This document shows positions 16,602-27,937 of a stretch of 64,000 nt of DNA, one piece after another (the first letter of the stretch is position 1; every line of letters starts with the position of its first letter). A program made the translations under genes and the position numbers. This DNA comes from Candidatus Lindowbacteria bacterium RIFCSPLOWO2_12_FULL_62_27 (GTDB lineage: Bacteria > Lindowbacteria > 2-12-FULL-62-27), in contig MFPR01000017.1 in assembly GCA_001784175.1 (NCBI GenBank), positions 124,001 through 188,000 of the forward strand, read 5' to 3'. The notes below the pieces were generated by a model. The model saw nothing but the letters and a program-made list of their open reading frames with translations, was not told the DNA's origin and searched no databases.

Positions 16602-18347
16602 TTACTGCGCCAGCAGCCGGACCGCCTGCGCGACCACCTCGAAGGGGAGCCATGAATCGGAGCCTTCCAGATTGATGAAGGTCCTCGGCGATTTCGCCAG
16701 GGCCGCCGCAAGCGGGTCCCACGAAAGCGGGCCCTGGGTGCCGGAGTCCTTGGTCGAATAGAACCACAGGCTGCCCGCGTCTCCGCTGCGGCCGGCCCAC
16801 TCCAGCACGACGCGCACGCATTCCTCCAGCTCGCCAAAATCGATTTTCGCATCCTTGTTCTTGTCGAAGGACGTCAGGAGGTCGTGGTTCCGGTTGAGCC
16901 ATTTCCGGATCTCTTCGGCCGCACGGTTGCGCTTCGCGGCCTCGTGTTTGAGTTGATCGCCCAACTCCGCAAGCCGCTGCGGATCGCTCATGAGTTTCCC
17001 CAGATAGTCCGGCAGGCGCAGGCCCGCGTTCCGGGTCAGCTCATGCAGCGGCGGAAGAACGCCGACCAGGCCCGACACGAAGTCGGACGTGCTGGTTTTT
17101 CCGTCTGCGCGCTTGCCGCCTTCCCACACCGTCACCGAATCGATCTTCAGGTTCGAGATTGCCTTCACCTGCTCCGCCACCAGTTGCGGGAGCTGCTCGG
17201 TGATCATGAGGAGCGCCGCCAGCTCCGGGCTGCCGCCGCTGGCGCGCACGACTTCCCGCAGGCCCGTGGCCTTCCGCGTCAGGATCGCCATCAGTCCCTC
17301 GGCTTCGCCCTCCATCACGGACCGGATCCCGTCGGCCTCGCCCTTCTTTGTCCGCCGCGTCTGTTCGGCCTGCGCCTCAGCCAGAATCTCGATGCGTTTC
17401 TTTTCGATCTCCGTCGGCACGATCACGTTCGCGACCTGCGTCGCCTCCTCGCGCTTCGCGCGCTGCCGTTCCGCCGACTCTTCTGCAACGTATGACTCCC
17501 TCAACGCGTCGGCGGCCTTCACCTTCTCGGCCGCCGTCCCCAGACGCTCCGACTCGGCCTCCTTCTCGCGGCGATTCGCGTTGGACTGCGCGATCGTGAT
17601 CGCCGCCAGGTTCTCGCCCTGCACGGCCGCCGCGTGCGCGCTGGCGACCTGGATCCGCTGTTCCTTATTGGCCGTCGCCTTGCCGATCTCACCGTCGCGT
17701 TCCTGCTGCGCGACCTTGATCTTCGCCTCGTTGATCGCGCGCGCGGCCGCCTCCTTGCCGAGGGCCTCGATGTAGCCCGATTCGTCCGTGATGTCCTGGA
17801 CGTTGACGTTGATGAGGCGCAACCCGACTTTCTTGAGTTCAACCTCCACGCCCTTGGATATGTTGTCAATCAGCCGGTCGCGGTCCGCGTTGATCGCCTC
17901 GATCGGCATCGTCGCGATCACCACGCGCATCTGGCCGAAAATGATGTCCTTCGCGACCTCCTGGATCGTTTTCATGTCCAGACCCAGCAGCCGCTCCGCT
18001 GCGTTCTCCATGATGCCGGGCTCGGTCGAGATGCCGATCGTGAAGGTCGACGGCGTGTTGACGCGGATGTTTTGCTGGGACAAGGCGCCCCGCAGGTTGA
18101 TGTCGATCGGAATCGGCGTCAGGTCCAGATACTGGTAGTCCTGAATCACCGGCCACACAAAAGACGCGCCGCCGTGATAACACTTGGCGTGCAGGCCCCC
18201 GACGCCTCCCCCGCTGATCTTCCCATACACCACCAATATCTTGTCCGACGGGCAGCGCTTGTAGCGCGACGCAAAACTGATGAGGGTGACAAACAACGCC
18301 AGGATCCCGCCGCCGATCAAAAATAAATACGCGACTGAAAATTGCAT
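16602..18347 (-). CDS. Flotillin-family SPFH protein with EF-hand and GYF_2-like tail
   Basis: 581 residues; ATG 18347 follows AAGGAGGA. An N-terminal membrane segment (about 5-25), an SPFH domain (about 25-210) and a long Ala/Glu-rich coiled coil (about 210-370) match flotillins, which scaffold lipid microdomains. The final 100 residues are not standard: a loop DKNKDAKIDFGE (about 495-506) fits the EF-hand calcium-binding consensus, and a segment with WFYSTKDSGTQGPLSWDPL (about 528-548) and SWLPF resembles GYF_2 domains that bind proline-rich peptides. It lies 11 bases downstream of an NfeD-like partner gene, the usual flotillin operon. Confidence 0.88.
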   Translation of the reverse strand: MQFSVAYLFLIGGGILALFVTLISFASRYKRCPSDKILVVYGKISGGGVGGLHAKCYHGGASFVWPVIQDYQYLDLTPIPIDINLRGALSQQNIRVNTPSTFTIGISTEPGIMENAAERLLGLDMKTIQEVAKDIIFGQMRVVIATMPIEAINADRDRLIDNISKGVEVELKKVGLRLINVNVQDITDESGYIEALGKEAAARAINEAKIKVAQQERDGEIGKATANKEQRIQVASAHAAAVQGENLAAITIAQSNANRREKEAESERLGTAAEKVKAADALRESYVAEESAERQRAKREEATQVANVIVPTEIEKKRIEILAEAQAEQTRRTKKGEADGIRSVMEGEAEGLMAILTRKATGLREVVRASGGSPELAALLMITEQLPQLVAEQVKAISNLKIDSVTVWEGGKRADGKTSTSDFVSGLVGVLPPLHELTRNAGLRLPDYLGKLMSDPQRLAELGDQLKHEAAKRNRAAEEIRKWLNRNHDLLTSFDKNKDAKIDFGELEECVRVVLEWAGRSGDAGSLWFYSTKDSGTQGPLSWDPLAAALAKSPRTFINLEGSDSWLPFEVVAQAVRLLAQ

Positions 18348-18358
18348 GAGGTTCCTCC

Positions 18359-18934
18359 TTAGCCGAGCGGCTCGACCAGCAGCGTCTGCGGGTCGACCAG
18401 GTCCACGACGCGGACCTTTGCTTGATTTTCAATTCGTTGGCCGGCGTTCGTGAACGCCTGCACCACCGTGAGCCGGCCCTGCACCAAAATCTCGATCTGG
18501 CCGGGGCCCGCGCGGTTGGCCGGGATCGGCAGATACACGCTGCCGACTTTGCCGACCGCGTTCCGGTAATTGAGCGTGCCGCTGTCGCGCAGGCGGTGAA
18601 GGGATCGCATCACGGAAAAAACGAAAAAGAGAAAAACGCTCCCGACCAGCGCCGCCAGAATCACCGTGCCGTACAGCGGCAGCTTGTTCTCGATGGCAAT
18701 CACGCCGGTCCATCCAAAGCCCACAAAAAACGCAACCACCGTCCGGACCGACAGGATGTGCAGCCCGCCCGGATGGTCCGTCGGGCCCTCCATGTCGACG
18801 TCGCCGACCGTGGCGTCATGGTCAAGACCGAAGAGCATGAGAATGAGTTGTGCGACGAGGATGAGCGTGGAAAGAATCCCGATCGCGTAGAAGATTTGCA
18901 GTTCCGTCGACATCGCGCCCCACCAAGTTGCCAT
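18359..18934 (-). CDS. NfeD-like membrane protein, flotillin partner
   Basis: 191 residues from ATG 18934 (ATG 18913 is an alternative). Three to four hydrophobic segments (about 12-35, 64-84 and 90-112) precede a small C-terminal beta domain with GKVGSVYLPIPANRAGPGQIEI and VRVVDLVDPQTLLVEPL, the OB-like fold of NfeD/YuaF proteins. Such proteins accompany flotillins in membrane microdomains, and the flotillin gene follows 11 bases later. Promoter elements are visible upstream at 18978-19006. Confidence 0.8.
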   Translation of the reverse strand: MATWWGAMSTELQIFYAIGILSTLILVAQLILMLFGLDHDATVGDVDMEGPTDHPGGLHILSVRTVVAFFVGFGWTGVIAIENKLPLYGTVILAALVGSVFLFFVFSVMRSLHRLRDSGTLNYRNAVGKVGSVYLPIPANRAGPGQIEILVQGRLTVVQAFTNAGQRIENQAKVRVVDLVDPQTLLVEPLG

Positions 18935-23434: not shown

Positions 23435-25894
23435 ATGGATAATCAGCAGATCCGGAAGCTGTCCGCCATCATGTTCACGGACATTGTCGGCTACAGCAAA
23501 ATGATGGGCGCCGACGAGCGGGGAACGCTCGAATTCCTCGGAATCCATAATCAGATGGTCAAGGAGGAAGTGGCGGACAAGCACGGCAAGATCATCAAGA
23601 CCATCGGCGACGCCTTCCTGGTTGATTTCGATTCCGCCGTCAATGCCGTCCGCGCGGCCGTGGCGATCCAGAACCGGATGACCGAATACAACCGCGACAG
23701 GAAGGACACCGAGAAAAGGTATCTGCGCATCGGCATCCATCTCGGGGATGTCGTCATCTCGGAGAACGACATCTTCGGCGACGGCGTCAACATCGCCTCG
23801 CGCATACAGCCCATCGCCGAGCCGGGCGGCATCTGCATTTCGCACGATGTCTATAATCAGATCAAAAACAAAATCGACGTCAGAGTCATCAATCTGGGAC
23901 CGCAGGAATTGAAGAACATCGCGGAGAAGATGGACATCTACGCGATCGTCCTGGGCGAAATGGAGGGCCGGGCCGCCGGCCCCGGAAGACGGCGGACGCC
24001 GAGACGGGTGGCGCTGTTCGCCGGCTTGGCGGTTCTCGCGGCGATGACGGCGGCGGTCCTCGTCAAAGGCGGCCTTCATCCTTTTTCGTCCGGTTCCTCT
24101 GAAGATCAGGACTGGCAGCTCTGGTATTCGGACGATTTTGACGATCAGTCCAAGTTCGAACAGAACTGGCGGGACATTCGGCTCGACCAATACATCAAAG
24201 ACGGATATCTCAACAGCGCAGTCCCCCTCAATCTCAAGGCCACCCTTCCGATTCAGCCCGTCCGGATAAGAATGCGGTGCAGACCCGAATCGGATGCGCG
24301 CGATCGTGGCGTGAGCACCCAAATTGCTTTTGATATCGAGTACGGACCCGGCCCGTGGTTCTTTTTTCGGGGGTTATTCTACTGGATCTGGATCGGAAAT
24401 GACCATGTTTTCAACAAGATGGGATACTCCGGTATCGCCCGAAAGACTGAACATGAATTCAAGGCACCGTTCAAGGCTGATGCGAAGCCATACGAGATCG
24501 ATTTTACGTTTGATAACGACCTCATGGCCATGACCACGCTGAATGGCGTGCGGCGGGAGACGCTCATTCGCGACATCACGACGCAGGACACGGAGATGAC
24601 CTTTGTCGTCGTGGGTCAGGGTGTCTTGATCGATCGGTTGGAGATTTATGTCCGAAAATCATCCGAAAACATGGATCTCGTTCAGGCCGCAGACAAATAC
24701 AGGCTTGATGGGAAATACTCCCTGGCCATCAACCTGTATGACGACCTGATTCGAATGTCCAAAAACGATCTCGCGCGATGCCGGTATCTGTATAAGAAGG
24801 CGCTTGCCTGCGCGTCGCTGGGCGACACGCCGGCCGAGATGGCGGCCTATCAAACGATCATCGACGACTACCCGGACAACGTCTACACCGGTTATGCGCG
24901 ATTCGATCTGGGTGTGAAGTATTATCAGCTCAAGAAGGGCCGCGAGGCCGTGGATGTCCTCAGGGAACTTGCCAACAAGCAGCCCGATCATCCCGAAGCG
25001 TCCAAGGCGCATGTTTACGTTGTGAGCGGCATGTTCCATGTGCTCGGAGATACGCCCGGGGCTGAACGCTATGCGAGGCAAGTCATCGAGCGCATGAATC
25101 CGACGGACCCGAAGTGGTCCGAGTTGGTAGACTTCCTCGTGACCCAGATCATGTTGACGGACACGAACCCTGAGACCGTCAATCGGGCCCTTGCCTTCGT
25201 GGATGAGCGGGCGGAAAAAGGCGGGTTTCAGTCAGAGTATCTCAGCTTGGAAAGTTTGCGCATGACCATTTATGTAAGAGCGAATCAGATCGGCCGCTTT
25301 TTTGATGACGCGGAAGCGATCCTTCGCAAACCGGACAAGCCGTACCTTCATTCCCGGATAGTTTATGCCGTAATGAATTACGAGCAGAAGTTCGGATTTG
25401 ACGACCGGGCCTCGAAACTCGTTCGTCTCATGAAAGAGAACAAGATCGCGTCGGACGAGGCTCTTTATCTGTATGCGATCAAGGCCGTTCGGGACGGAGA
25501 CACGCCATCGGCGGTCGAGTACTTCAAGCAGTACCGGCAAAAAGTGCAGATGGGAACCTGGGCCGAATCCGCCAAGGCGTTTCTGGACACATACTCCGCG
25601 CCCGCGCCGCAGGGTTCCTACGTCCGCTGGACGGTCGGCGAGTCGACGGCTGTCGTGACGTATGAGATTGGACCCAAATCCGTGATCCAATCCAAGGATC
25701 GGATGATCCTGCACCTCGGCGTGAACGGCTGGCAGCAGGTCCGCGATTATAAAATGGAACGGAAAGACAACAGATGGTCGTACGGCGTGCCGCTGGACAA
25801 CAGCCTTCAAACATTGAACTTCGTCTTCTACGACGGCAAGGGCAAATGGGACAATAACAGCGGGTTGAATTGGGATGTGACGCTGAAAAGATAA
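23435..25894 (+). CDS. Transmembrane class III nucleotidyl cyclase with lectin-like, TPR and starch-binding-like domains
   Basis: 819 residues. Residues 8-175 are a class III adenylate/guanylate cyclase domain: metal-binding Asp16 (FTDIVGYS) and Asp59 (IGDAFLV), and Asn119/Arg123 in GDGVNIASR, all intact. One membrane helix (about 191-210) follows, so the remaining 600 residues should be outside the membrane. Residues about 228-415 (LWYSDDFDDQSKFEQNW, then beta-strands) resemble concanavalin-A-like/LamG folds; about 420-700 are TPR-like helices; the last 100 (ILHLGVNGWQQV, NFVFYDGKGKWDNNSG) resemble CBM25/53 starch-binding modules. Inference: a carbohydrate-sensing second-messenger synthase. 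The order of domains is unusual. Confidence 0.88.
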   Translation: MDNQQIRKLSAIMFTDIVGYSKMMGADERGTLEFLGIHNQMVKEEVADKHGKIIKTIGDAFLVDFDSAVNAVRAAVAIQNRMTEYNRDRKDTEKRYLRIGIHLGDVVISENDIFGDGVNIASRIQPIAEPGGICISHDVYNQIKNKIDVRVINLGPQELKNIAEKMDIYAIVLGEMEGRAAGPGRRRTPRRVALFAGLAVLAAMTAAVLVKGGLHPFSSGSSEDQDWQLWYSDDFDDQSKFEQNWRDIRLDQYIKDGYLNSAVPLNLKATLPIQPVRIRMRCRPESDARDRGVSTQIAFDIEYGPGPWFFFRGLFYWIWIGNDHVFNKMGYSGIARKTEHEFKAPFKADAKPYEIDFTFDNDLMAMTTLNGVRRETLIRDITTQDTEMTFVVVGQGVLIDRLEIYVRKSSENMDLVQAADKYRLDGKYSLAINLYDDLIRMSKNDLARCRYLYKKALACASLGDTPAEMAAYQTIIDDYPDNVYTGYARFDLGVKYYQLKKGREAVDVLRELANKQPDHPEASKAHVYVVSGMFHVLGDTPGAERYARQVIERMNPTDPKWSELVDFLVTQIMLTDTNPETVNRALAFVDERAEKGGFQSEYLSLESLRMTIYVRANQIGRFFDDAEAILRKPDKPYLHSRIVYAVMNYEQKFGFDDRASKLVRLMKENKIASDEALYLYAIKAVRDGDTPSAVEYFKQYRQKVQMGTWAESAKAFLDTYSAPAPQGSYVRWTVGESTAVVTYEIGPKSVIQSKDRMILHLGVNGWQQVRDYKMERKDNRWSYGVPLDNSLQTLNFVFYDGKGKWDNNSGLNWDVTLKR

Positions 25895-25921: not shown

Positions 25922-27937
25922 TTACTTCCCCCTCATCCCCCGCACCGCGTCCAGATTGGCCCGCGCGTCCGCGTGGTCCGGCTTGAGGCGGATCGCCTCC
26001 GAATAATGCCGGGCTGCCTCCTTCAGACGGCCATCGCGCGCGAAGACATTGCCCAGATTGTAATGCGCCGTCGCGTATTCCGAATCCAGCCGCAGCGCTT
26101 CCTGATACTGCGCGATCGCCTCGGCCGTCCGGTCCAGCCCCGCCAGCGCCATCCCCAGATTGTTGTGATGGGTCGGCGACCCCGGCTGAAGCTCGACGGC
26201 CGTGGCCAGATACCGCGCCGCCTCATCGTAGCGGCCATTTCTCATCAGCGCCGTCCCCAGCTCCGACAGCGCCGCCGGATGGCCTGAATCGGTTTCGAGC
26301 GCCCGGCGCAAGCGCGCAATCGCCTCGTCCAGACGGCCTTCGCGCTTGTAAAGTCTCGCCAGGTTTACGTTGGCCTCCAGACGCCCTGGATCGATCTCCA
26401 GCACGGCGGCATACTGCGCCTCGGCATTCCGGCCGTCACCGGCTTTCAGATACGCGTTGCCCAGCATCTCAATCAGTCCGACGTTCCCCGGATCTTTTTC
26501 GAGTTCCTTCCGGAGAAACTCGATCGCGCGGTCGGTCCGACCCTGTCGGATCAGCGCGATGGACAGGTTCTTCGCCGCATCGGGATAATACGCCGGCGCG
26601 ATCCGCCGCGCCGCGCTGTAATGCTCGACCGCCTCGTCGTGCCGGCCCCGGTTCAGCATCAGGTTGGCCAGATTGTGATGCGCGAGATGATTGTCCGCCG
26701 TCACGCAAATCGCGCGTTCATAGAGCGCGAAGCTGTCGTGCCAGAAGCCCATCTGCGACCGCGTGGCGGTCACAAGACCGGCGATCGACACGCACGCGCA
26801 CACCCAGAGAGCCGGCCGGATCCTGCGGAACACCGCGCCGAGTTCTGCGAGCGCCCACACGATCATGAGGGACAGCCCGATCTGCGGCACGTACATGTAC
26901 CGGTCGGCCATCGCCTGCCGGCCCACCTGCACAAGGCCGATGACGGGGATCAGCGTGATCACGTACCAGAGCCAACCCGTCACGAGGTACCGGCGCCCGC
27001 GGAAAACGAAGACCAGCGCCGAAATGAGGATCAGCATGAAAGCGCAGCCCGTGACTTTCCAAACTGGCGGCGGCGCGGCGGCCAGCGGATAAAAAAACGC
27101 CAGATCCACAGGATACAGCATCATCCATACGTATTTCACGTAACTCACAACCATGTTTGACAGGCGCACCGAAAGCGGAAACGTTTCAGATGTCATGATC
27201 GACCGCCCCCCGTGCTGGGCGAGGACGGTCAAGAGGGAGGAAAGGCCGGACAAAACCAGCAATGGAATTTTTTCAAGGATCACCCGTCTCAGGGATCGCC
27301 CGCGCATGCCGAGCGGCCAGTAATCGAGCAGAAGCAGCACGAGCGGCACCGTGACCAGCATCGGTTTCGCCATCAAGCCCACGGCGAAAAGGGCGGCCAC
27401 GCCCGCGTATCGCGCGGCGTTTGGCCGGTCGACATATCGGGCGTAGGCCCACAGCGTCAACAGCCAGAAGAACGTGCTCAGGACGTTCTTGCGTTCCGCC
27501 ACCCATGCCACCGATTCGAGCGCCAGCGGATGAACCGCGAATACGGCCGCGACAAACGCGCTCGGCCGGACCGCGCCGGTCAGCCGTCGAAGCACGAGAA
27601 ACACGAGAAGCGCGTTTGCCGCGTGAATCCACAGGCTCGTCAGATGGTGCCGGCCCGCGTCCATCCCGTACATCTCCACGTCTGCAAGATGCGACAGCCA
27701 CGTCACCGGATGCCAGTTGCTCGCCTTGTACGTCGTGAAGGCCCACGCGATGGTTTCCCGCTCCAGCCCCCGCTGAACCTGCGGGTTGGTCCTCACGTAG
27801 CTGTCATCGTCGATGTCCAGAAACTCGAATCCGCGAATCGGCCAAAAAACGCCAACCGTCAGGACCAGGAGAAGGACACAGATCATCCAAGTTCGGCGCA
27901 TGTATGGAAATAAACAAAAAATCCCCCGCGTGTCCAT
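25922..27937 (-). CDS. TMTC-like GT-C glycosyltransferase with C-terminal TPRs
   Basis: 671 residues; ATG 27937 or 27901. About ten hydrophobic segments carry FLDIDDDSYV (the acidic motif of GT-C enzymes), NWHPVTWLSHL, GRHHLTSLWIHAANALLVFL and AVHPLALESVAWVAERKN, the signature of bacterial relatives of eukaryotic TMTC O-mannosyltransferases. From about residue 410 at least six TPRs follow. The family is thought to transfer a sugar from a lipid carrier to periplasmic proteins; the acceptor here is unknown. It is convergent with the cyclase gene, 27 bases apart, and divergent from cca. Confidence 0.85.
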   Translation of the reverse strand: MDTRGIFCLFPYMRRTWMICVLLLVLTVGVFWPIRGFEFLDIDDDSYVRTNPQVQRGLERETIAWAFTTYKASNWHPVTWLSHLADVEMYGMDAGRHHLTSLWIHAANALLVFLVLRRLTGAVRPSAFVAAVFAVHPLALESVAWVAERKNVLSTFFWLLTLWAYARYVDRPNAARYAGVAALFAVGLMAKPMLVTVPLVLLLLDYWPLGMRGRSLRRVILEKIPLLVLSGLSSLLTVLAQHGGRSIMTSETFPLSVRLSNMVVSYVKYVWMMLYPVDLAFFYPLAAAPPPVWKVTGCAFMLILISALVFVFRGRRYLVTGWLWYVITLIPVIGLVQVGRQAMADRYMYVPQIGLSLMIVWALAELGAVFRRIRPALWVCACVSIAGLVTATRSQMGFWHDSFALYERAICVTADNHLAHHNLANLMLNRGRHDEAVEHYSAARRIAPAYYPDAAKNLSIALIRQGRTDRAIEFLRKELEKDPGNVGLIEMLGNAYLKAGDGRNAEAQYAAVLEIDPGRLEANVNLARLYKREGRLDEAIARLRRALETDSGHPAALSELGTALMRNGRYDEAARYLATAVELQPGSPTHHNNLGMALAGLDRTAEAIAQYQEALRLDSEYATAHYNLGNVFARDGRLKEAARHYSEAIRLKPDHADARANLDAVRGMRGK

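Follow-up and report, generated by a model that had tools for sequence, protein, structure and literature searches.

We describe an 819-residue protein of Candidatus Lindowbacteria bacterium RIFCSPLOWO2_12_FULL_62_27 that may, on a reading we hold tentatively, be a single-pass membrane adenylyl cyclase whose outer part ends in a carbohydrate-binding module (CBM) and acts as an alpha-glucan receptor in this organism. Sensing of alpha-glucan is the leading reading of the protein; we are moderately confident that the protein is an adenylyl cyclase with a receptor part outside the membrane, and less so that its ligand is alpha-glucan.

The gene and its source genome

The gene occupies positions 23435-25894 (+) of the window, i.e. 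the whole stretch of 64,000 nucleotides that was analysed, where an open frame scan gave 819 codons without interruption, beginning with ATG. GC content by codon position is 56/37/73%, a coding-type codon bias that fits a GC-rich genome, and the gene is real and intact. From the domain scan and a colinear relative in a sister genus, the encoded protein comprises a cyclase domain, a transmembrane (TM) helix, a beta-rich region (possibly concanavalin-A-like), tetratricopeptide repeats (TPRs) and a CBM25/53-like module, in this order. The source genome is a draft assembly of 4.39 Mb, divided among 44 contigs. As only two other genomes of its family were among those searched, and the classification of the next closest ones agrees with its own at the level of domain alone, the lineage is poorly sampled. 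Within the window, no structured RNA matched an Rfam family, and promoter and terminator scans stayed near chance level. Viral contigs searched for relatives contained none, and peptide patterns run against contigs of species genomes returned a short TPR match and nothing more.

Cyclase domain and membrane topology

The N-terminal class III nucleotidyl cyclase domain (residues 7-172; 23453-23950, +) matches PF00211 at residues 11-171 (E 3.2e-17, 63.2 bits against a cut-off of 21.9), and the solved structures nearest to it are PDB 3mr7 (E 6e-33) and Ma1120 of Mycobacterium avium (4wp9, E 1.4e-16). The two metal-binding aspartates (D16 and D59) and the asparagine-arginine pair that acts on the transition state (N119 and R123) are present, which bears out all four residues on which an initial annotation of this DNA had called an intact class III cyclase. 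The lysine and aspartate that specify the substrate are present as well, K55 at the position of K101 and D112 at that of D157 in Ma1120, where the two residues specify ATP (PMC4215837). Judged from these residues, the protein is most likely an adenylyl cyclase, with cAMP as the predicted product; as usual for its class, it is predicted to be active as a homodimer. The nearest catalytic domains elsewhere belong, as read from sequence, to cyclase-(TM)-TolB-like-TPR, cyclase-TM-TPR, cyclase-kinase and cyclase-CHAT-like proteins; the domain order found here is unlike the common cyclase-TM-TPR order, as the initial annotation had remarked. A locus with another class III cyclase domain, C-terminal to a long HEAT-like region, lies just before the window and extends into its first bases (C17:121965-124160, L003); this locus has a paralogue on contig C33 (L004), which is followed by a Ser/Thr-kinase-like protein, and the open frames of the two span 983 and 1009 codons, about 730 residues of each being covered.

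The cyclase domain is followed, after the motif GRRRTPRR, by a single membrane helix (residues about 192-210; 24008-24064, +), in agreement with the one helix annotated at the outset. Mean hydropathy exceeds 1.5 in this segment alone (scan starts 190-198, peak 2.54 at 192), and lysines and arginines are distributed asymmetrically around it, with six in the 16 residues on the N-terminal side and none in the 16 on the C-terminal side. With one hydrophobic helix and a positive-inside flank, the cyclase is most likely cytoplasmic and the rest of the protein extracytoplasmic, i.e. the topology is predicted to be single-pass type II (N-in, C-out). CHASE, HAMP or other receptor domains gave no Pfam match in the protein.

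The region beyond the membrane helix

Residues 227-407 (24113-24655, +) form a beta-rich region with a possible concanavalin-A-like fold. A Pfam scan of this region, even at E 10, found no family in the protein or in its relative from the sister genus, and a two-sequence profile searched against solved structures returned chance-level matches and nothing better. The AlphaFold2 model, built on an alignment of two sequences, is mostly beta but of low confidence (mean pLDDT 54.5, pTM 0.59). Its structural matches, none of them strong (best Foldseek E 7.7e-3; best Z 6.9, a value in the range that can reflect a common arrangement alone), are mostly L-type lectins, galectins, beta-sandwiches of GH16 and GH32, and a phage Dit CBM. 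The concanavalin-A-like region proposed by the initial annotation has weak structural matches of lectin and glucanase type, the Pfam scan produced no match to LamG or a similar family, and the fold is predicted with low confidence; a lectin-like, concanavalin-A-like identity is plausible for the modelled region.

Helical repeats of TPR type follow (residues 411-704; 24665-25546, +). In the Pfam scan, TPR models (TPR_14, TPR_6, TPR_16, TPR_19) match within residues 426-525 and again near 657-704, and TPR_14 passes its curated cut-off (27 bits against 23.5), so that the TPR region annotated after the concanavalin-A-like one holds. The relative from the sister genus has TPRs at the same place, and the segment resembles periplasmic repeats of the YbgF/CpoB/BamD type.

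The C-terminal module (residues 728-819; 25616-25891, +) is the best-supported new element of the protein. CBM53 matches residues 757-796 with E 1.5e-4 in the whole-protein scan and, when the isolated module is searched, with E 8.5e-6 and 26.4 bits; as this score is 1.2 bits under the Pfam curated cut-off of 27.6, we name the module CBM25/53-like rather than file it as a member. The module of the relative matches CBM53 independently (E 2e-4). Against solved structures, the top match of the isolated module is 2c3v, the CBM25 of a Bacillus halodurans amylase (BhCBM25), at an insignificant E of 0.41; a profile of five such modules reaches 2c3v with E 3.7e-5, a gain that comes partly from the other members and is not independent proof. 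The AlphaFold2 model of the module has a pLDDT of 77, with a good core (blocks of 82-92), and its best Foldseek matches are the CBM21 of PTG (E 1.3e-4), CBM56, the Rhizopus starch-binding domain and the glycogen-binding domain of AMPK; BhCBM56 aligns with Z 10.0 over 86 residues at 3.2 A. As modelled, the module is a beta-sandwich of the starch-binding-domain type. Fibronectin-type cytokine-receptor domains score only slightly below the starch-binding domains against the same model, so the fold alone is no proof of sugar binding. With the CBM53 match and the starch- and glycogen-binding fold matches, the CBM25/53 features first noted in the module are upheld; the last ~100 residues and the membrane helix, which had been singled out beforehand as decisive, proved to be a predicted carbohydrate-binding beta-sandwich and to be present, respectively.

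The contact residues are more telling than the fold. The maltotetraose site of 2C3V consists of W34, W74, H26, D81 and N76 (PMC4625611); a CBM25 on its own has a low affinity for starch (Kd about 30 uM in the case of BhCBM25; PMC3398936). In our alignments four of these five contacts are kept, H26, W34, W74 and N76 corresponding to H760, W766, W805 and N807, with N812 in the place of D81. The H..W..WDNN signature recurs in modules of unrelated bacteria; one of these modules belongs to a protein that matches GH57 significantly, and two others have the motifs of the GH57 protein, with no GH57 match in the stretch scanned.

Occurrence of the architecture and genomic context

A relative in another genus of the family (L012, 729 residues) carries the cyclase, the helix, a beta-type region that opens with the same W-L--DDF motif, the TPRs and the terminal module. 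Identity to it is 28% along the whole length and 40% within the first 240 residues, and because the domain order recurs in this independent genome it is no artefact of assembly or gene fusion. In the module of this relative, H760 is replaced by K, W805 by I and N807 by K, while W766 and N812 remain; with three of the four shared contact residues lost there, glucan binding is no conserved property of the architecture, and the sister module has either a changed ligand or another role. In the third family genome, which is 81% complete, no protein of cyclase-TM-beta-TPR-CBM order is present. Outside the family, neither a search of about 290 genomes with the full profile nor one of 386 with an ectodomain profile brought up a colinear protein, and the latter search also found the ectodomain on no kinase or other output; the absence of the full architecture from these roughly 390 genomes is to be read with sampling and divergence in mind. 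A weak match to the ectodomain in the source genome (C24, E 0.17) was discarded, as it lies on the wrong strand of a gene that looks like a beta-propeller. The open-access literature yielded no paper on a cyclase joined to carbohydrate-binding modules, and records elsewhere are possible. The protein is a new combination of known domains, so far confined to one family.

The source genome holds 14 GH13 and 7 GH57 matches, which makes alpha-glucans relevant to the organism. Within the same 4.4 Mb there are 30 cyclic-nucleotide-monophosphate (cNMP)-binding and 13 class III cyclase-domain matches, and the former mean that a cAMP signal would have readers. The immediate neighbours of the cyclase gene encode a glutamine synthetase, a TMTC-like TPR protein, an enzyme of the CCA/polyA-polymerase (tRNA nucleotidyltransferase) family and PutA, and the neighbours of the sister gene differ from these; with such metabolic and TPR neighbours, and different ones in the sister, there is no operon evidence for glucan use. 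No polysaccharide gene cluster surrounds the gene, and the flippase and TMTC-like protein to which the initial annotation had drawn attention do not make this segment a functional cluster.

Several other loci were noted in passing. In the window, the TMTC-like protein (25922-27937, minus strand) combines a membrane part of PMT_2 type with a long tail of TPRs, and its gene is convergent with that of the cyclase; a flotillin-like Band_7 protein (16602-18934, minus strand) adjoins a small membrane protein that looks NfeD-like, the latter without a Pfam match. Elsewhere in the genome, contig C6 carries at about 121755-135419 (L117, L118) an open frame of 8313 codons with GH13, GH57 and CBM53-like matches, a putative very large secreted amylolytic protein, and contig C20 (L010, 328-1842) an apparently secreted amidohydrolase_2 that carries at its N-terminus a CBM53 scoring above the cut-off, an unusual combination. 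A thioredoxin/AhpC-TSA protein (G001, L069, 661-1719) bears an AMPK-type glycogen-binding domain at its N-terminus. Both relatives within the family have numbers of cNMP-binding and cyclase matches similar to those of the source genome, a rich cyclic-nucleotide network.

Discussion

In the arrangement that we favour, the N-terminal class III domain would make cAMP in the cytoplasm as a homodimer and would be joined to the membrane helix by a short, flexible linker rich in Gly, Arg and Pro (about 20 residues, no HAMP), and the outer part, composed of the beta-rich domain, the TPR solenoid and the CBM25/53-type module, would be the receptor. The terminal module would bind alpha-glucan (starch, glycogen or maltodextrin) in this organism, and binding would alter the dimerisation or the spacing of the membrane helices and thereby change cyclase output. 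The linker would pass proximity, not rigid rotation, to the cyclase dimer, and the cAMP made would be read by part of the genome's complement of roughly 30 cyclic-nucleotide-binding domains. The stronger version, in which this is the first bacterial class III adenylyl cyclase to turn outside alpha-glucan into a cAMP signal through its own starch-binding-type module and the beta-rich domain is a second carbohydrate site, we regard as unlikely.

The outer part might instead serve to recognise a protein or a component of the envelope, engaged through the TPRs and the beta-rich domain, with the CBM-like module as a structural cap or with a drifted ligand. This is possible, if doubtful: TPRs are typically protein-interaction repeats, those found here resemble periplasmic ones, and in the sister protein the architecture persisted while most of the shared glucan contacts were lost, but in the protein described here these contacts are near intact and closely resemble those of CBMs in unrelated secreted enzymes, a state that would be surprising unless sugar binding had been under selection. 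The initial interpretation is in part supported: polysaccharide sensing may hold for the 819-residue protein, which keeps four of the contacts, but is not to be assumed for the whole architecture.

It is rather improbable that the module is an anchor and no sensor, holding the cyclase at a layer of polysaccharide, glucan-rich or otherwise, beyond the membrane while the beta-rich domain, the state of the membrane or the like sets activity. CBMs in enzymes commonly serve proximity, and weak binding by a single CBM25 would suit avidity and anchoring; against this, the module stands at the far end of a receptor-like single-pass protein with a cytoplasmic enzyme, a layout of the RsgI type. Far less probable still is a cyclase that makes cGMP, cCMP or cUMP, for example in a Pycsar-like defence. 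PADLOC models of PycC do match the catalytic domain (E 8.4e-8), but the match is limited to that domain and far weaker than those to ordinary bacterial class III cyclases, and K55/D112 is a pair of the ATP type. Neither a Pycsar effector in general nor an adjacent membrane or NADase effector was found among the neighbouring genes, which encode metabolic and TPR proteins, and Pycsar defence was rejected.

For most single-helix, TPR-tailed bacterial class III cyclases the ligand is not known. A member in which conserved contact residues hint at the class of ligand makes ligand control in this large group directly testable with inexpensive soluble glucans and, if alpha-glucan sensing is true, places a second-messenger route beside the small number of systems known to let bacteria sense polysaccharides directly.

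Akin to the cyclase-TM-TPR proteins (with or without a TolB/FlgO-like part), the protein has an N-terminal catalytic domain, a single helix and C-terminal TPRs; it differs from them in the beta-rich domain between helix and TPRs and in the CBM25/53-type module after the TPRs, found in this family only. The module is like BhCBM25 (2c3v) in fold type and in the residues equivalent to H26, W34, W74 and N76; unlike the CBM25 and CBM53 modules of amylases and starch synthases, it is joined to a signalling enzyme, has N in the place of D81 and occurs as a single copy. Coupling of a starch- or glycogen-binding beta-sandwich to signalling is known from the CBM48 of AMPK beta and the CBM21 of PTG, which are among the best structural matches of the module, although these are eukaryotic, cytosolic and part of regulatory subunits. 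The RsgI-type anti-sigma factors of Clostridium thermocellum (PMC12203970, PMC4711584), to which no sequence relation is known, work alike, in that a cytoplasmic output is connected through one TM helix to an extracellular carbohydrate-binding sensor; their output is the release of a sigma factor by proteolysis, as against cAMP synthesis here, and the likeness drawn is one of layout.
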